From Clostridiales bacterium (lineage in GTDB: Bacteria; Bacillota_A; Clostridia; Saccharofermentanales; Saccharofermentanaceae): a stretch of 22,725 bases of DNA. Positions within the stretch are counted from its first letter, which is position 1. Each line of letters begins with the position of its first letter. The stretch is taken from positions 1-22,725 of the forward strand of contig JAGCGE010000109.1 in the NCBI GenBank assembly GCA_017649745.1, in the 5' to 3' direction. Shown here piece by piece: positions 6,596-22,725 of the stretch. The notes under the pieces are model-generated. The model was not told the DNA's origin, searched no databases, and saw nothing but the letters and a program-made list of their open reading frames with translations. Made by a program: the position numbers and the translations under genes.

Positions 6596-8080
6596 ATGGT
6601 CAAGATAGAAGATAAAGAATTTCTGTTCAACAACCATGTTGACAGTTGTATAGGAACGGGCAGAATGGGGCTCGCACTCCAGAAGGAGTACTTAGATCAG
6701 CTCGAGTTCGTTCAGAAGTATATTGGATTCAAGCACATCAGAGGTCACGGCCTTTTCTCAGATGACATGGCGATCTATCAGGAACGTGATATGAGCAGGT
6801 TCGGAGAAGGCATAACGATAGATTATAACTTCACTTATCTCGATCTTGTCATGGATAGCTACAGAAGGCTCGGACTTAAGCCTTATCTCGAGCTTGGATT
6901 TATGCCTAATAAGATGGCTTCAGGAGAGCAGACGATCTTCTACTGGAAGGGTAATGTAACTCCGCCTAAGGATTACGATGCATGGGCTAAGCTGCTTAAG
7001 GTTACTCTCGAGCATCTGATCTCACGTTATGGTCTCGAGGAAGTTCTCACATGGCCTGTTGAAGTATGGAATGAACCTAACCTTAAGGGATTCTGGAAAG
7101 ATGCTTCAAAGGAAGAATACTTTAAGCTTTTCAAGGTGTCATTCAATGCAGTTAAGAGCGTCAATAAAGACTTTAAGGTCGGAGGTCCTGCAGTATGCGG
7201 CGGTTCTGATAAGGAGTGGATCCAGGCGTTCCTCGAATTCTGCGATAAAGAGGATATCAGACCTGACTATATCTCACGTCACCACTACTGTACTGATCAG
7301 CCTCTGGTCAAGGGTCACTATGGTTATCAGAAACTTCTCGATCCTGAAAATGAGGAAGACGGATTCCCGAACCTTCATTCCACGAGAGAGATCATAGACA
7401 GTTTCCCTAAGTTTAAGGGACTTCCTATACACATTACGGAATTCAACACATCATATATTCCTAATTGTCCGTTACATGACACTAATCTGAATGCGGCTTA
7501 TATCGCTCATCAGCTCTCAAGATTGGGTGATGATAACGTTGCATATTCCTACTGGACATTTGGTGATATCTTCGAAGAATTCGGTGTTCCTTTCACGCCT
7601 TTCCACGGAGGATTCGGACTTGTGGCTAACGGCATTATCCCTAAGCCTACTTTCTGGACTTTCGTCTTCTTTAAGAACCTTAAGGAGAAGGAATATAAGT
7701 GCGTTTATAAGGACGAGTATTCCGTTATCGTTAAGTTCCCTGATGGTGAATACAGAGGCGTTTTGTGGAACAGGTTTACGGAAGACAAGGAAATGTCCTT
7801 CGAATTCGCTAACGACGAGTATTCGTTTATAACAGAGACTGTCGATAAGGATACATGTAATCCTCTTAAGATATGGCACGATATGGGTGAACCGTCATCT
7901 CTTTCGGAGAGTCAGAAAGACATCTTAAGAAGAGCAGCTAATCCGCTCGTCTCATCATCGAGATCGGATGGTAAGCTGAGCTTCAATATTAAGGCTGACG
8001 GAGTGATCTATTTCACATTGAAGCCTAATAAGATAACACCAGACAGAGGATACGATTTTGATCTTGTAACCGGAGGTTAA
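6596..8080 (+). CDS. Glycoside hydrolase family 39, probable beta-xylosidase
   Basis: A 494-residue retaining glycosidase of clan GH-A, with no signal peptide, so it should act in the cytoplasm on imported oligosaccharides. The catalytic acid/base is Glu160 in VEVWNEPNLKGFW and the nucleophile is Glu282 in IHITEFNTSY. Glu160 is the same position reported for Thermoanaerobacterium XynB, the best-studied GH39 member, and length is also typical. The HIRGHGLFSDD segment near residue 47 and YWTFGDIFEE near 330 are further GH39-like blocks. A strong GAGAGGA site precedes the ATG. The next gene starts on the base after this stop, and its ribosome site lies inside the last codons here. GH39 also contains other activities, such as alpha-L-iduronidase, so beta-xylosidase is probable rather than certain. 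Confidence 0.9.
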   Translation: MVKIEDKEFLFNNHVDSCIGTGRMGLALQKEYLDQLEFVQKYIGFKHIRGHGLFSDDMAIYQERDMSRFGEGITIDYNFTYLDLVMDSYRRLGLKPYLELGFMPNKMASGEQTIFYWKGNVTPPKDYDAWAKLLKVTLEHLISRYGLEEVLTWPVEVWNEPNLKGFWKDASKEEYFKLFKVSFNAVKSVNKDFKVGGPAVCGGSDKEWIQAFLEFCDKEDIRPDYISRHHYCTDQPLVKGHYGYQKLLDPENEEDGFPNLHSTREIIDSFPKFKGLPIHITEFNTSYIPNCPLHDTNLNAAYIAHQLSRLGDDNVAYSYWTFGDIFEEFGVPFTPFHGGFGLVANGIIPKPTFWTFVFFKNLKEKEYKCVYKDEYSVIVKFPDGEYRGVLWNRFTEDKEMSFEFANDEYSFITETVDKDTCNPLKIWHDMGEPSSLSESQKDILRRAANPLVSSSRSDGKLSFNIKADGVIYFTLKPNKITPDRGYDFDLVTGG

Positions 8081-14576: not shown

Positions 14577-15428
14577 ATGAATATCAAGAAAACGGTTAGT
14601 TCGCTCTTGGCTGTTACGATGATATTGCCAATCGTGTTTTTTGCAGGCATGAACGTAAATGCCGCTGGAACGAGCAAGGACTTCGTAAACAGGATATACA
14701 AGTACATCCTTCAGAGAGATCCTGACGAAAAAGGTCTTAATTACTGGACAAGCGAGCTTGACAACAAGAAGGTCAACGGCGGTTCTCTTGCCAAGTCTTT
14801 CCTTGTAAGTGAAGAATTCACTAAAAAGTCGATCAGCAATAAACAATATGTAACTATCCTTTACAATACATTTTTCGGAAGAGAGCCGGACGAATCCGGT
14901 CTTAAGTATTGGGAAGGCAACCTGAACGATGGAAAGAATAACAGAGAACAGGTAGCTAACGGATTCATCAATTCACAGGAGTGGGCTGATATCTGTGCTG
15001 AGTACAACATTATCTCAGGCGGTAACAAGAAGCCTTCCAAGCCGATGAGTGCAACTCCTAACGATAAGACAAAGGCTTTCACTGAAAGACTTTATACATG
15101 TGCTCTCGAGAGAAGCTCTGATCAGTCAGGTCTTGACTACTGGTCAAAGAAGCTTGCTTCGTTTGAAGTAACAGGCGAAGAAGCAGCTGCAGAGTTCCTT
15201 CTCGGTTCAGAGATCAAGAAGGCTAATCTCAGCGATGCACAGTTCCTTTACAGACTCTACCAGACATTCCTTGGAAGAGTTCCTGATCTTGAAGGATATG
15301 ATTACTGGCTCGATTACATGAAGAAGCATCCTGAGGATAAGTTCCAGAAGACAGTATATGCCTTCTCAAGAAGCCAGGAGTTCATCCAGATCTGTGATGA
15401 GGCAAACATCTTACCTTACGCAGGTTGA
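14577..15428 (+). CDS. Secreted protein with four DUF4214 repeats
   Basis: A 283-residue exported protein. A cleavable signal peptide (MNIKKTVSSLLAVTMILPIV onward, probable cut after VNAA near residue 30) is followed by four DUF4214-like units. Each contains the pattern LY-x4-L-x-R-x-PD-x2-GL-x-YW-x3-L, at about residues 37-61, 92-115, 169-193 and 224-248. The four units are arranged as two pairs separated by a Lys/Pro/Ser linker (about 148-165). DUF4214 is found in many surface and extracellular proteins, but its role is not established. There is no lipobox, LPXTG or S-layer anchor, so it is either released or held by the repeats. A GCGGAGGA site supports the ATG. A related gene starts at 22354. 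Confidence 0.9.
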   Translation: MNIKKTVSSLLAVTMILPIVFFAGMNVNAAGTSKDFVNRIYKYILQRDPDEKGLNYWTSELDNKKVNGGSLAKSFLVSEEFTKKSISNKQYVTILYNTFFGREPDESGLKYWEGNLNDGKNNREQVANGFINSQEWADICAEYNIISGGNKKPSKPMSATPNDKTKAFTERLYTCALERSSDQSGLDYWSKKLASFEVTGEEAAAEFLLGSEIKKANLSDAQFLYRLYQTFLGRVPDLEGYDYWLDYMKKHPEDKFQKTVYAFSRSQEFIQICDEANILPYAG

Positions 15429-15440
15429 TCTCTTAATACA

Positions 15441-17786
15441 TTAACCAAGAGTAATTATCAGTTCCTTAGCGGAAAAGTCGATAGAAGTTCCCCAGTCGGA
15501 AATGTTCGGCATTGATTCAGAAACGCTTACAACGTTTTTGATACCGCTAAGGACTATTCTTTTATTGGAACCAAATCCTTCAGTCCTTACAGTGATCTTG
15601 TTGCCGCTCTTAAGGATGTTGATGACACCTGAATGTGATCCGTCTGCTGAGAACACTTCGAAAGCAGCGATCTGCTCATTCTGAAGCTCGAAAACAGTAA
15701 AGGTTAAATTGTTAAGGAAGTCATCAGCGTGAGTATCAGGCATTGCAGATACAACGATAGAATTCGGTCTTACAAGGATCGGAATGTTGTTAGCATCTGC
15801 CTTTGTCTTTTTGTAGCACGGACCCTGGATCTTCTCTCTTGTAAGAAGGTTGGTCCATATTCCTGAAGGAACATAGTAGCTTACGATGCTCTGATCGTTA
15901 AGTACCGGTGCGACCAAAAGATTAGGTCCTAACATATACTGGTGGATAAGAAGTCTTGATGAGAGATCTTTCTCGAACTCGAGGAACATAGGTCTCATCG
16001 AAGGAGCTCCCAGTGTAGCTGCTTCACATACGAGTGAATAGAAGTGAGACAGCATTCCTTTTCGCATATTGGAGAAGAACTTGATCGTATCGGATGCACC
16101 GTTGAAGGCTGACAATAAAGTCTTGCCGTCTACAGTAAATCTCATGTGCGGAGCAAGAAGTCCGAACTGAGCCCAGCGTGTGAAGAGAAGATCATCTTTT
16201 CCAGGAACGAGAAGAGGTGTGTCGATATTTACAGTATTGATTCCACTAAGTCCGAGTGAGAGACACTTCTTAAGAGTACAGCTGAGCGCTCCGAATGTGT
16301 TGTTCTCTGCGATGATGTTCGCATAAGGATAGAGCTGTGCTCCTGTAGAGAGCGCATTCATGATGACCATTGCATTAGCGTGTCCCTGAGTTCTTGAAAC
16401 TGCTTCGTAAACAGTCTCGTTGAAGAGCATTGAGAACGAATCATTGATCTCTGAAGCCTTAAAATCGCTGAAGAACTTGACCTCGTCGTCTTCGAAATCG
16501 AAGAGTCTGTAACTGAATCCTGCTTCGATCATATCTACTCCGAGTAAAAGAAGGCTATCGACTCTCTGCTGGATGAATGATCTTGCTGCGATATTTGTAA
16601 GATCGAGCAAAGCAGCACCGGCGCATTCGTTATCACGCATATAGATGAGGCCGTCAGTTGTCTTAAGGAGAAGATCATTCTCGAGACACTCGTCGTAGAA
16701 TTCAGAACTGTCACTAATATAAGGCGTTACGGTAAGACCTACACGGCATCCTCTCTCGTGGATCTTTCTGCAGAAGCCCTGAGGGTCAGGGAATCTTGCA
16801 GGATCAAACGAGAATCCCAAAGGATCAGTAGGTGCAAGCCACATCGTGGAAAGCCAGATCTCGCTTAATGGAATGCCTGCTTCCTCGCTTCTCTCAACGT
16901 ACTTGATAACATCGTCAGCTGTGAGATCTTTGTTGTCTTCGATGATGACGGATGTTCCAAGGCTCCATGAAGGTGCTGTGTGAGCTACTCCCAAGAATCC
17001 GTTGAAAAGATTGAGAACGCTCATCATATCTTCGCTTACGAAGATGATGTACTCGATCTCTTCGTCATCGGTCGAGAAAGAAACCGTTGAAGCATATTCT
17101 GTTCCGAATGAGAAGTCGACGGAACTATAAGTGTTTACGAAGATACCGTATTTACCTGAAGAGATGTAGAAAGGAACCTTCTGGCAGTCAGAAGCCTTAG
17201 CTCCCTGACCGGCTCTGTTTGTTGCGTGGATATTGGAACCATTCAAGAGAAGAGCAGCACCGTTAGCACCAAGACCATAAAGCTGTTCGTCAGGTGAGAA
17301 GGATAAAGCTTCTCCCGTTGATACTTTCTTGGAGATCTTGTAGTTAGATGCAACACCTGAATTAGTTGTATATGAAGCGCCTCCGTTATCGGAGTGTGAT
17401 GATGTTACGAATTTACCGTAATAATAGAAGTCGATACCGAAAGTGTCTGATTTGGAGATCCTTGCCTCGAACATATTAGCCTTGAAGATGATGTTATCAT
17501 CAGTCTCTTCGACTTCGCCTAACTGGGAAGGCTTAGCTTCGATGTATCTCTTTGTCGGCATGAGACTTGAACGGTGATTTACATAGCGGACTCTGATCGC
17601 GTTAGATCCGCATGCGGATAATTCTATTGTCATCTGACCCGGAACGTCAGACCTTTTGACTGTTTTGCCTGTAAAACCGCTTGAGTAGGAACAGACTGAC
17701 GTCTTCAATGTAAGAGTGTAGTTATCGAATGATACTGCCGTTATCTTCTTTGGGTTTTTGATAAGAGCACTGGAACTTGATGACAT
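15441..17786 (-). CDS. Glycoside hydrolase family 31-like protein with degenerate active site
   Basis: A 781-residue cytoplasmic protein with the complete GH31 architecture: N-terminal beta-sandwich (about 50-260), catalytic-type barrel (about 270-600) and C-terminal sheet domains. Family landmarks are clear: FDPARFPDPQGFCRKIHERG (327-346), LGLSG (511-515), and FTRWAQFGLLAPHMRF (535-550). Key catalytic positions differ. Where GH31 enzymes have the nucleophile in KTDFGE or WxDMNE, this protein reads GVDMIEAGFSY with Gly423 at the nucleophile. Around the acid/base Asp it reads YPYANIIAEN (Ala493-Glu494), and the pocket Asp of the IWxDxxW strand is Ser313. It is full length with GGAGGA ahead of the ATG, so it is not a decayed fragment. 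It may bind rather than cleave alpha-glucosides. It is divergent from the iron-ADH-like gene. Confidence 0.88.
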   Translation of the reverse strand: MSSSSSALIKNPKKITAVSFDNYTLTLKTSVCSYSSGFTGKTVKRSDVPGQMTIELSACGSNAIRVRYVNHRSSLMPTKRYIEAKPSQLGEVEETDDNIIFKANMFEARISKSDTFGIDFYYYGKFVTSSHSDNGGASYTTNSGVASNYKISKKVSTGEALSFSPDEQLYGLGANGAALLLNGSNIHATNRAGQGAKASDCQKVPFYISSGKYGIFVNTYSSVDFSFGTEYASTVSFSTDDEEIEYIIFVSEDMMSVLNLFNGFLGVAHTAPSWSLGTSVIIEDNKDLTADDVIKYVERSEEAGIPLSEIWLSTMWLAPTDPLGFSFDPARFPDPQGFCRKIHERGCRVGLTVTPYISDSSEFYDECLENDLLLKTTDGLIYMRDNECAGAALLDLTNIAARSFIQQRVDSLLLLGVDMIEAGFSYRLFDFEDDEVKFFSDFKASEINDSFSMLFNETVYEAVSRTQGHANAMVIMNALSTGAQLYPYANIIAENNTFGALSCTLKKCLSLGLSGINTVNIDTPLLVPGKDDLLFTRWAQFGLLAPHMRFTVDGKTLLSAFNGASDTIKFFSNMRKGMLSHFYSLVCEAATLGAPSMRPMFLEFEKDLSSRLLIHQYMLGPNLLVAPVLNDQSIVSYYVPSGIWTNLLTREKIQGPCYKKTKADANNIPILVRPNSIVVSAMPDTHADDFLNNLTFTVFELQNEQIAAFEVFSADGSHSGVINILKSGNKITVRTEGFGSNKRIVLSGIKNVVSVSESMPNISDWGTSIDFSAKELIITLG

Positions 17787-17850
17787 ATAATTATCCTCCG
17801 TTAAACACTTTGTGGTTACCCTTTCCTTATTAAATCACACTTTTTTGAAG

Positions 17851-17856
17851 ATTATA
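17851..17856 (-). promoter_or_regulatory. Putative -10 for the GH31-like gene
   Basis: A perfect TATAAT on the minus strand (plus-strand ATTATA) lies about 65 bases upstream of the GH31-like start and only 7 bases from the -10 of the divergent gene. A good -35 is not evident. Confidence 0.3.
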
Positions 17857-17860
17857 CTGA

Positions 17861-17869
17861 TGTTATAAT
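17861..17869 (+). promoter_or_regulatory. Extended -10 promoter for the iron-ADH-like gene
   Basis: TG (17861-17862), T, then TATAAT (17864-17869) lies 27 bases before the ATG. The -35 region is T-rich (17841-17846). The block TGATGTTATAATA starting at 17859 is identical to that ahead of GH39. Confidence 0.5.
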
Positions 17870-17896
17870 ACAATTTGATTTCAAAGGAGCGCGAGA

Positions 17897-19081
17897 ATGG
17901 TCACTAACAAGAAATTTGCCAAATATGCCAAGCATAATGATGTTGAGACTCAGAGCCTCTACATTGAAGATGAGGCACGATTTCATCTTGTTGACGAGCT
18001 TCGCAGCAGAGGAACTCGACGCATACTTGTAATATGTGACAATTCATTAAGAAGACTCCATCCGTTCGAAGAAGTTATCAATTCATTTGAAGAAGCGGGA
18101 TTCAGGGTATTCGTATACTGTCAGCCGGGAAGCATCCTTCTGGACAGGGATATCGAAGGCGGATTCAAGATGTACGGTGAGTACAACTGTGACACGATAG
18201 TTGCTATCGGAGGCACATCTGAGATCGACTGCGGTAAGCTCGTAGCTGCTCTCGTAACTAATCCTGTAAAGACCGTTGCGCAGTTTGTGGGTATAGACAA
18301 GATAAGTAATGAGATACCTCTTCTTTGCACTATCATGACAGAGAACTGTGCATCGTCCACGACGGGCAGCGCAGAATTTTTCGATAATACATCGAAGCAG
18401 TGGAAGACTGTAATAAGCAGTGTTCTTGTTCCGCATATGGTCGTTATCGATACCGAGATATCAGAGCGTGTATCGCTCGAGAATTCCATCTCATCAGCAC
18501 TTACGGCTCTCTGCGTAACGATCGAAGCATATATTAGCCCTGTTGCCAAGGAATATCCTGAGTATAGGGCGAGCGCGATTAATGCGAGCATGATCTTTTT
18601 CAAGAATCTGGAGAAGTTCTGTAATAACCCTAGTGATAATTTCCTTCGAAAACAGATCGCCGTTGCAGGATTTTATGCAGGTCTCGCATCACGTAAGACG
18701 GGTATCGGATATGCACACATAATCATGCATACGATACTCGGAAGATACAAAGTGCTTCACGGAACCGGACTTATCAGGATCCTTATACTTGTTCTTCGCG
18801 AACAGCTCGTAAATAAAGAAACATGCAGCGTCCTGTCGGAACTTGCGAAGGCAGCACACTTCTGTTCTCAGGGTCTGTCAGATGATAAAGCGGCAGAATC
18901 ACTTGTTGATAATCTTGAAAGACTCTATCTCAAGGTATCAGGTGATGCAGGAAATCCGATAGTAGATGCTGCCGATATAGATATGCTCGTAAGCGAGGTC
19001 GAAAACGAAGCCAGGACTTACGTGCTAAGTAAAGATATAGATTCGAAAGCGTTAAGGAAGATAATCCTCGCGCTGTCTTAA
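17897..19081 (+). CDS. Iron-containing alcohol dehydrogenase-like protein lacking two metal ligands
   Basis: A 394-residue protein of the type III (iron) alcohol dehydrogenase family. The N-terminal nucleotide-binding half carries YNCDTIVAIGGTSEIDCGKL, where the usual GGGS is GGTS (105-108), and the phosphate-loop region TENCASSTTGS replaces the usual TTAGTGSE. In the helical half, metal ligands are expected in DALTHAIE; here the segment is TALCVTIE, so the Asp is Thr203 and the His is Val207. The other two ligands, His274 and His288 of GYAHIIMHTILGRYKVLHG, are kept with normal spacing. It may not bind Fe or Zn in the usual way and may be non-catalytic, or use another mechanism. AAGGAG lies 7 bases ahead of the ATG. 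The cca gene follows after 18 bases. Confidence 0.85.
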   Translation: MVTNKKFAKYAKHNDVETQSLYIEDEARFHLVDELRSRGTRRILVICDNSLRRLHPFEEVINSFEEAGFRVFVYCQPGSILLDRDIEGGFKMYGEYNCDTIVAIGGTSEIDCGKLVAALVTNPVKTVAQFVGIDKISNEIPLLCTIMTENCASSTTGSAEFFDNTSKQWKTVISSVLVPHMVVIDTEISERVSLENSISSALTALCVTIEAYISPVAKEYPEYRASAINASMIFFKNLEKFCNNPSDNFLRKQIAVAGFYAGLASRKTGIGYAHIIMHTILGRYKVLHGTGLIRILILVLREQLVNKETCSVLSELAKAAHFCSQGLSDDKAAESLVDNLERLYLKVSGDAGNPIVDAADIDMLVSEVENEARTYVLSKDIDSKALRKIILALS

Positions 19082-19099: not shown

Positions 19100-20440
19100 A
19101 TGAATATTGATTTTAGATTTCCGTCCTATGTGGAAAAGGTGCTCGACCTTTACGAAGAGAACGGCTATAAGGCCTTTGTCGTCGGCGGCGCCGCCAGGGA
19201 CATTATTATGGGTAAGCCCCCACACGATTATGATATCGCGACAGATGCAGATCCGGATGAAGGTCTTGCGATATTTAAAGCTAAAGATATTAAAACTATA
19301 GATACATCAGCCCGCCACGGAACCATTATTGCCGTTGTTGAGGGCGAGCAGGTCGAGATAACGACATTTAGGGTTGACGGCGATTATAACGACAATCGTC
19401 ATCCCGACAGTGTGATCCTGACAAGAGACATCAATGAAGACGTATCAAGACGCGACTTTACGATGAATGCCATCTATATTGGGAAAGATCTTAAACCTGT
19501 AGATAAATTCGGAGGCGTCGATGACATCTCGAAAAAACTCATCAGAGCAGTAGGTGATCCGAAGAAGCGTTTTGAAGAAGATGCGCTTCGTATCCTGCGT
19601 GCCTTGAGATTCTCATCCGTTCTCGGATTTAAGATCGAGGAGAGCTTAAAGAATGCCATCTTCGATTGCAAAGAACTCCTCCACAACATCTCGGTCGAGA
19701 GGATCAGGGAGGAGCTTTATAAGATAGTCACAGGCAAGAATGCGACGACAGTCATAAGAGATTATCTGGAAGTGTTCTCGCTCTTTGTTCCTGAACTTTT
19801 AAGGATGAGAGGATTCGATCAGCATTCGAGATACCACGATAAGGATCTTCTCGAACACACATTATCGGTACTCGATCTTGTTGAACCGAAAGAGGGCAAT
19901 CTCTGTCTGGCTGCACTCCTTCACGATGTCGGTAAGCCGGATGTTTTCGTAATGGATGATGAAGGTTATGGTCACATGAAGATGCATAACATCAAAAGCC
20001 GCGAGATCACTGACGATTTCCTGAACAGGTTCAAGTTTTCGAATGCAGACAAGAAAGAGATCAGCGATCTGGTATTTCTCCATGACGTTTTCCCTGAGTC
20101 TAAGGCATCTGTCAGAAAGTACCTGTCGAAGTATACGCTGGACTTCATGAAGAAGCTTGCTTCTCTTCAGAAGGCCGATATCCTGTCGCATTCCGAATAC
20201 GGCAAGAGGAGGATCACACTGCTTGAAGACAGGGAGAAGATCATCGAAGAGATCATTGCTAATGATGAGTGCTTCAATATGAAAGATCTTAAGATCGGAG
20301 GCAGGGATCTTATCGATATGGGTATCCCTGAAGGACCTGACGTCGGCAGGATCATGAAGGATGTTTTCGCGAAGGTGCTCGAAGGCGAGATCAAAAACGA
20401 CAGGGACGAACTGCTCCTTTATGTTAAGAGTCTGATTTGA
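19100..20440 (+). CDS. cca: CCA-adding tRNA nucleotidyltransferase (class II) with HD domain
   Basis: A 446-residue enzyme that builds or repairs the 3' CCA end of tRNA without a nucleic-acid template. Class II motifs appear in order: GGAARD (29-34), catalytic DYDIATDA (43-50), RRDFTMNA (117-124), and EDALRILRALRF, whose EDxxR element selects the incoming nucleotide. A C-terminal HD phosphohydrolase-type domain follows, with LLHDVGKP at about residues 273-280 and HD in FLHDVF; this is common in Firmicutes versions. It is a housekeeping gene in an operon with the ADH-like gene upstream and plsC downstream (12-base gap). GAGGAT at 19084 is a spaced ribosome site. Confidence 0.94.
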   Translation: MNIDFRFPSYVEKVLDLYEENGYKAFVVGGAARDIIMGKPPHDYDIATDADPDEGLAIFKAKDIKTIDTSARHGTIIAVVEGEQVEITTFRVDGDYNDNRHPDSVILTRDINEDVSRRDFTMNAIYIGKDLKPVDKFGGVDDISKKLIRAVGDPKKRFEEDALRILRALRFSSVLGFKIEESLKNAIFDCKELLHNISVERIREELYKIVTGKNATTVIRDYLEVFSLFVPELLRMRGFDQHSRYHDKDLLEHTLSVLDLVEPKEGNLCLAALLHDVGKPDVFVMDDEGYGHMKMHNIKSREITDDFLNRFKFSNADKKEISDLVFLHDVFPESKASVRKYLSKYTLDFMKKLASLQKADILSHSEYGKRRITLLEDREKIIEEIIANDECFNMKDLKIGGRDLIDMGIPEGPDVGRIMKDVFAKVLEGEIKNDRDELLLYVKSLI

Positions 20441-22353: not shown

Positions 22354-22725
22354 ATGAAAACGCCCAAGAAACTACTAGGTTTTTTACTGGCGCTCATTCT
22401 GGTGCTCCAGGTACCTGTAGCGGTATTTGCCGATGACGAATCCGATGAGACAGGTCTTGGCGGCTTTGTTTCCAGAGTCTACAGAACCGTTTTGGAACGT
22501 GAATATGACCAGGACGGTTACGATTATTGGGTCGACGGATTGACGCAGAATAAGCTCAATGCAGCTAATCTCATGGATTTTTTCGTATTCTCGCCTGAGT
22601 TCATAGGCAAGAACGTTTCTGATAACGAATACGTTGATATCCTTTATCATTCGATGATGGACAGAGAGCCTGATGCCGACGGTCAGAAGTTCTGGCTTGA
22701 TTCACTTCATGACGGAATGACCAGA
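22354..22725 (+). CDS. Secreted DUF4214 protein, N-terminal part (cut by window edge)
   Basis: 124 codons with no stop before the right edge. The start MKTPKKLLGFLLALILVLQV is a signal peptide with a probable cut after VFA near residue 27. Two DUF4214-like units are visible: VYRTVLEREYDQDGYDYWVDGL, and LYHSMMDREPDADGQKFWLDSL. They share the LY/VY-x4-L/M-x-R-x-PD/YD-x2-G-x2-YW/FW pattern with the protein encoded at 14577, so the two are paralogues in one surface-protein family. GGGGGAT at 22340-22346 is the ribosome site. More repeats, or another domain, probably follow outside the window. Confidence 0.85.
   Translation, partial: MKTPKKLLGFLLALILVLQVPVAVFADDESDETGLGGFVSRVYRTVLEREYDQDGYDYWVDGLTQNKLNAANLMDFFVFSPEFIGKNVSDNEYVDILYHSMMDREPDADGQKFWLDSLHDGMTR

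Follow-up and report, generated by a model that had tools for sequence, protein, structure and literature searches.

A probable pseudo-glycosidase derived from GH31, with stages of its making preserved in one bacterial family

We describe a gene on the minus strand of a 22,725-nucleotide stretch of contig JAGCGE010000109.1 from a Clostridiales bacterium; the whole of this stretch is called the window below. The gene codes for a protein that keeps the architecture of glycoside hydrolase family 31 (GH31) and has, by alignment, a dismantled catalytic pocket. It is probably a pseudo-glycosidase derived from GH31, and stages of its making are preserved among its relatives. On balance, we consider it probable that the gene was neofunctionalised and now codes for a non-catalytic binding or scaffold protein. 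The computed evidence consists of the fold, the residue losses and their order, the locus, purifying selection, conservation that has moved out of the barrel and into the C-terminal beta domains, and a new set of fixed barrel residues.

The reading frame spans 781 codons without an internal stop. A first-pass annotation made from the DNA letters gave no strand for it and had called the product a full-length GH31 homologue with an undamaged frame and a good ribosome site, and this description holds: three GH31 domains exceed their Pfam cut-offs (121, 70.9 and 58.4 bits), and GGAGG stands 8 bases from the ATG. Both homology and fold place the protein in GH31, with a (beta/alpha)8 barrel flanked by beta-sandwich domains. 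It falls outside the NCBIfam alpha-xylosidase equivalog PRK10658, against which it scored 438.5 bits, under the curated cut-off of 606. No signal peptide was seen by eye, and the protein is probably cytoplasmic.

We compared the protein with YicI from Escherichia coli at 15 positions that we take to make up the pocket; the residue letters at these positions agree with the YicI sequence. All 15 are altered, and the window protein differs at every one of them from the closest known systems, YicI (1we5, 1xsi) and its Klebsiella homologue (8t7z). The changes, from YicI to the window, are D185-A192, F277-D284, D306-S313, F308-M315, W345-T352, W380-E387, K414-E421, D416-G423, R466-N477, W479-N490, D482-A493, W508-V519, S509-N520, H510-I521 and H540-T551. 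They include Asp306, Arg466 and His540 of YicI, which presumably bind the sugar and are replaced by Ser313, Asn477 and Thr551. The catalytic aspartates of GH31 lie on beta4 and beta6 (PMC8063059, PMC1249566). The window protein has Gly423 in place of the nucleophile at the end of beta4 and, by sequence alignment, Ala493 in place of the acid/base at the end of beta6, with Glu494 adjacent. HMMER and two MAFFT alignments placed both residues in the same register. Gly423, Ala493 and Ser313 are the substitutions that the first-pass annotation had named; all three stand, and the loss is wider than it stated. By alignment, the window protein lacks the GH31 residues that carry out double displacement and those that hold the sugar. 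We infer that it has no glycoside hydrolysis of the GH31 double-displacement type.

The substitutions are shared by a clade. A search of 5.8 billion proteins, in which candidates sharing words were scored, returned 12 close clusters at 46-98% identity, followed by GH31 proteins at no more than 27%. All 12 lack the acid/base Asp and carry Glu for Lys414 and Asn for Arg466, so these replacements are not a lone sequencing error. The column of residue 423 holds Gly in five of the clusters and Asp in seven. A contig search returned six loci, from Clostridia or Clostridiales metagenome-assembled genomes and from Mageeibacillus sp. UBA4314. Within the bacterial family, 85 of 115 genomes contain a match at E<=1e-90. 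We read all 85 loci and found an eroded site in 81, with the catalytic pair present in four (L092, L094, L095 and L124). The 73 genomes from the rest of the order yielded no copy at E<=1e-90, a threshold that weaker relatives would escape.

The relatives preserve several stages of loss. We built trees from 64 and 34 hand-chosen rows of 115 after removing 17 catalytic columns. In the 34-row tree, two relatives with an intact pair (L092 and L094), whose genes lie about 4.3 kb from the CCA-adding enzyme gene cca, join all eroded rows with support of 100/100, and the same grouping appears in the 64-row quick tree. By alignment, the eroded proteins are of three kinds. L122 and L123 retain Asp306, Asp416 and His540 and have His or Arg at the acid/base position. 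A second clade (L101-L121) retains Asp416, with the acid/base changed to Asn and Arg466 to His. The third kind, in which the loss has gone further, is an inner clade that includes the window. Among its 64 sequences, the acid/base column holds no Asp or Glu, and the nucleophile column holds Asp in 34, Asn in 20, Gly in five, Ser in three and Ala in two. The nucleophile column changed three times in the 34-row tree: to Gly in the window's group, to Ala in L058/L061 and to Asn in L062/L085. L074 and L090, which have Asp at this position, fall amid Asn and Ser rows in the 64-row tree, so the changes exceed the three counted on 34 rows. These stages suggest a path that would begin with an intact YicI-like alpha-glycosidase encoded near cca. 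The acid/base would have been lost first, together with the sugar-holding Asp, Arg and Trp residues, and the nucleophile later and more than once, with the fold and gene position retained.

We considered whether an ordinary GH31 glycosidase had been misread by alignment or whether the gene is a decaying pseudogene. The three alignments agree in register, and we reject misalignment on this agreement, with one caveat. A shifted acid may be present in Glu494, the neighbour of the acid/base column; it occurs in 11 of 13 sequences (the window and the 12 close clusters) but only 11 of 64 in the inner clade, and no comparable residue occupies the nucleophile site. We reject decay on the ratio of non-synonymous to synonymous substitution (dN/dS), which by the Nei-Gojobori method lies far below 1, at 0.033-0.114 in 20 hand-picked pairs, four of which (among the window, L001, L002 and L003) have a GH31-like dS above 1.5, near saturation. 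Compared with cca from the same pairs, the GH31-like gene has a lower dN/dS in 17 of 19 (the exceptions being L081-L091 and L065-L080) and a lower dN in 19 of 19. It is thus held about as tightly as its housekeeping neighbour, and mostly tighter. Among the eroded frames, which number 82 when the window is added to the 81 genomes, two are clearly short: L127, with 496 residues, and L128, with 605 against the contig end. We give misreading or decay almost no credence. The protein combines the features by which a pseudoenzyme is recognised, namely a kept fold, lost catalytic residues and purifying selection, and the annotated view that the gene is under selection is borne out.

Constraint on the protein has moved to new places. 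We counted column conservation in 64 inner-clade rows (leaving out the fragment L127 and P0002-P0006) and in 20 intact rows (21 minus L144). The intact proteins have 176 columns conserved at 95% or more, of which 45 are retained in the inner clade; 14 of the 176 are pocket columns, and none of these is retained. The inner clade has instead fixed Glu309 (97%), Trp311 (95%), Glu421 (100%), Asn490 (97%), Asn520 (100%), Pro524 (100%) and Arg575 (95%), and it retains Asp522, His547 and Arg549 at 100%. In a predicted model, Glu309, Trp311, Glu421, Asn490 and Asn520 lie on barrel strands 2, 4, 6 and 7.

The distribution of conservation over the domains is also altered. Among 10 intact proteins, the barrel has a mean pairwise identity of 65% and the distal C-terminal domain one of 25%. 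Across 38 inner-clade rows, the means are 40% for the barrel and 55% for the distal domain (52-55% for the C-terminal domains), with 43% overall. In separate pairwise alignments, the distal domain was more conserved than the barrel in 135 of 136 inner-clade pairs, 28 of 55 second-clade pairs and one of 45 intact pairs; these pairs came from 17 of 64, 11 of 21 (with the fragment L128 set apart) and 10 of 21 rows, respectively, and are non-independent in that they share sequences. The C-terminal 194 residues were used to look for stand-alone copies and matched 29 proteins, of which 27 carry PF21365; these may be gene fragments, and free-standing use is not established. Against the PDB, the distal domain by itself gave a weak match to YicI (E 0.028).

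The newly fixed barrel residues raise a serious rival to a non-catalytic role: a new enzyme in which the barrel was rebuilt on Glu421, Asn490 and Asn520 (with Asp522, His547 and Arg549) and which would act, for example, as an inverting hydrolase with its base re-sited, a lyase or an isomerase. Glu421 and Asn520 are invariant and Asn490 nearly so, despite a mean identity of 43% in the 38-row subset. There is a precedent in the related family GH97, some subfamilies of which share Gly at the nucleophile position; GH97a and GH97e have the base elsewhere, with an acid at the end of beta5 (PMC1249566). At the corresponding residue 477, 32 of the 64 inner-clade proteins carry Asp. Asn occupies this place, however, in the window and its close clade (residues 474-479 of the window read VIMNAL), which closes the GH97 solution to the window; we rejected a base re-sited in this way for the window, and the possibility stays open for the relatives with Asp477. 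Moreover, just one new acidic residue is fixed at a strand end, and a barrel less conserved than the C-terminal domains is the opposite of the usual active-site pattern. We therefore regard a new enzyme as unlikely for the window but as a rival to be taken seriously, more so for the relatives with Asp477.

A different possibility is a purely structural scaffold that binds no ligand, in which the new barrel residues would replace old contacts and the protein would form an oligomeric platform. The high conservation of the distal and proximal C-terminal domains fits this proposal, as do the variability of the old pocket at positions 416, 466, 482 and 540 and the reported hexameric state of YicI (PMC9061262). 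Against it, polar residues on the barrel strands are completely fixed, which suggests more than filling, and any partner is hypothetical. We find such a scaffold rather improbable.

The protein could also regulate, as a non-catalytic, prozyme-like subunit, an active GH31 paralogue of its own cell. Of the 81 genomes in which the copy is eroded, 18 contain another GH31 match at E<=1e-60, and the two second copies that were read (L139 and L140) have an intact site. However, 14 of the 81 draft genomes contain a single GH31 candidate in a first look that may miss distant copies (G003, G006, G007, G017, G018, G026, G030, G034, G047, G059, G060, G084, G093 and G095). Dependence on an active paralogue is unlikely to be the general case, and we rate this explanation as very improbable.

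The non-catalytic reading that we favour would work as follows. The protein would act as a binding or scaffold protein, perhaps oligomeric like YicI, with its working surface mainly on the C-terminal beta domains. The rebuilt centre of the barrel around Glu421 would bind a new small ligand or lock the structure. A divergently transcribed homologue of iron-dependent alcohol dehydrogenase (ADH), described below, would be the first candidate partner. More tentatively, the two back-to-back enzyme relics, one with a Glu421/Asn490/Asn520 centre and the other without its metal site, may together make up a new two-protein device in the cytoplasm, a sensor or scaffold whose work is done by the C-terminal beta domains of the GH31 relic and not by its barrel; we think this proposal rather doubtful. 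The first-pass annotation had suggested that the gene is selected for something other than normal hydrolysis, and selection and catalytic loss agree with this. Its sugar sensor or carbohydrate-binding protein is not shown, because the sugar-holding residues are gone and conservation in the inner clade is strongest in the C-terminal beta domains. Its alternative of a rebuilt site finds some support for Glu421, in 64 of 64 inner-clade sequences, and less for Glu494.

Several observations weigh against a non-catalytic protein with the history proposed here. A one-residue loop shift could place Glu494 near the acid/base site. In the second clade, 19 of 21 sequences have Asp one place before the acid/base column; a similar shift could save that acid, and this clade may not be fully dead. 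The nucleophile column still holds Asp in more than half of the inner clade, and residue 477, after beta5, is Asp in half of it and Asn in 26 of 64; by alignment, some members thus keep acidic groups at the barrel mouth, and the window has neither. A new enzyme would likewise account for the invariant Glu421, and the closeness of the new barrel residues is judged from their strand positions in the model. The node uniting all eroded lineages has support of 90/92 in the 34-row tree. In the window's close clade (nine rows), the shift of conservation is small (barrel 66%, distal domain 68%), and conservation of the C-terminal domains may be structural. Finally, the ADH-like gene accompanies only some of the eroded copies, and adjacency to cca may be mere position.

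We surveyed the surroundings of the gene in 80 eroded loci, 79 fetched and the window itself, with L122 and L123 outside the set. A cca homologue lies divergently upstream of the GH31-like gene in 72 of the 80; four of the other eight (L068, L077, L097 and L128) have fewer than 500 bases of contig upstream. The ADH homologue stands between the GH31-like gene and cca in 34 of 80 loci. In the window it matches PF00465 and PF25137, and at the metal site, where we take Asp-His-His-His to be the four ligands of iron-dependent ADHs, it has Thr-Val-His-His. None of 53 ADH-like copies has all four ligands and four have three. The best-scoring NCBIfam model for this neighbour is ErcA, at 138 bits against a cut-off of 550, and the protein is not a member. 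An ErcA-type ADH homologue and its kinase have been presented as regulatory elements (PMC12997753), which gives a precedent for regulation by an ADH homologue; the window neighbour differs in its lost metal ligands. The DNA that separates the GH31-like from the ADH-like gene shows strong conservation between the window and five relatives (L001-L005), and its most conserved block probably holds back-to-back promoters. A scan of the intergenic region for promoter patterns found five against 5.3 expected, which is not above chance. Feature coordinates are collected in Table 1.

Table 1. Features of the window, with positions counted from its first nucleotide
Feature	Position	Strand	Basis
GH31-derived pseudo-glycosidase gene, 781 codons	15441..17786	-	Open reading frame, Pfam, HMMER, structure comparison
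Ribosome site GGAGG, 8 bases 5' of ATG	17795..17799	-	Sequence reading
TIM-barrel domain, residues 271-585, catalytic pocket dismantled	16032..16976	-	Pfam PF01055 and pocket states
Proximal and distal C-terminal beta domains, residues 593-781, most conserved part of the inner clade	15444..16010	-	Identity comparison
Ser313 at pocket Asp position (YicI Asp306), following strand beta2	16848..16850	-	Alignment
Glu421 (YicI Lys414), new residue, 64/64 of inner clade	16524..16526	-	Column conservation
Gly423 at nucleophile position (YicI Asp416), directly after strand beta4	16518..16520	-	Alignments
Asn490 (YicI Trp479), new residue, 97% of 64	16317..16319	-	Column conservation
Ala493 at acid/base position (YicI Asp482)	16308..16310	-	Alignments
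Asn520 (YicI Ser509), new residue, 64/64	16227..16229	-	Column conservation
Conserved intergenic block between divergent GH31-like and ADH-like genes	17829..17883	.	Window aligned with L001-L005
Iron-ADH homologue, divergent neighbour, two of four metal ligands lost	17897..19081	+	Pfam, alignment
cca (CCA-adding enzyme)	19100..20440	+	Name by sequence inspection, no family search

A pilin-like gene follows cca, or in three loci the GH31-like gene, in at least 54 of 80 eroded loci; none was found in the window. The PF07963 N-methylation motif was detected by Pfam in the pilin-like genes of L058 (185-937), L061 (4979-5809), L076 (9949-10740), L101 (1963-2718) and L125 (11648-12589). In L058, L060 and L061, the GH31-like gene is away from cca, which is absent from the fetched stretch, and lies 146-189 bases from the pilin-like gene. 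These three loci form one clade in the tree and so represent one event. We considered a functional link between the GH31-like gene and cca and rejected it, as these three copies do not stand by cca. In another 19 genomes of the family (L145-L163), the fetched stretch contains the ADH-like gene but no GH31, and cca stands beside the ADH-like gene in 17 of the 19. All 19 carry a HAD-type motif resembling thrH, a name given by inspection, compared with none of 102 other loci.

Other genes were noted around these loci. Near the intact GH31 relatives lie genes for RsgI-like anti-sigma factors (L092 4593-5600, by Pfam; L094 8584-9639, by inspection) and, by inspection, a sigma-like gene. The window codes for two secreted-looking proteins with DUF4214 repeats (14577-15428 and 22354-22725); the first gene runs convergently to the GH31-like gene, and L002-L004 have homologues of it in the same place (60-63%). 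A GH39-family gene at 6596-8080 (382 bits, Pfam) has homologues in L003 and L004 (83-84%), and the two genes after it resemble WYL-type regulators by inspection. GH31 genes of about 670-700 residues with one or two stops in the matched stretch were seen at G014:C44, G043:C72, G063:C38, G064:C61, G068:C18 and G073:C6; these stops may be real damage or a match-end artefact.

We compared the protein to other glycosidase folds without catalysis. Chitinase-like proteins and the GH13-like heavy chains of SLC3 use such folds in non-catalytic roles, in other GH families and hosts. Heparanase 2 likewise puts a glycosidase fold to non-catalytic work, again in another GH family and host (PMC12406646). 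The sandfly NET37-like proteins (LlGlyMyo2) are GH31 homologues that, like the window protein, seemingly lack hydrolytic activity, their proton donor being replaced by Pro (PMC8063059). They are eukaryotic, and the change reported for them is at the proton donor, whereas the pocket described here is altered as a whole, across a bacterial family and mostly at one locus. Among the matches listed in a search of one library of open-access literature, there was no bacterial GH31 pseudoenzyme.

To our knowledge, far more work has gone into pseudoenzymes related to kinases and phosphatases than into those related to bacterial glycosidases. The family described here contains intact, half-eroded and fully dismantled versions of a single gene, most of them at the same locus. 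From this living series one can read, and test, in which order catalysis was lost and how a new conserved core arose, and the adjacent metal-less dehydrogenase homologue offers a testable partner. Annotation at family level, as alpha-xylosidase or GH31, may be misleading throughout an entire family of gut and rumen bacteria.
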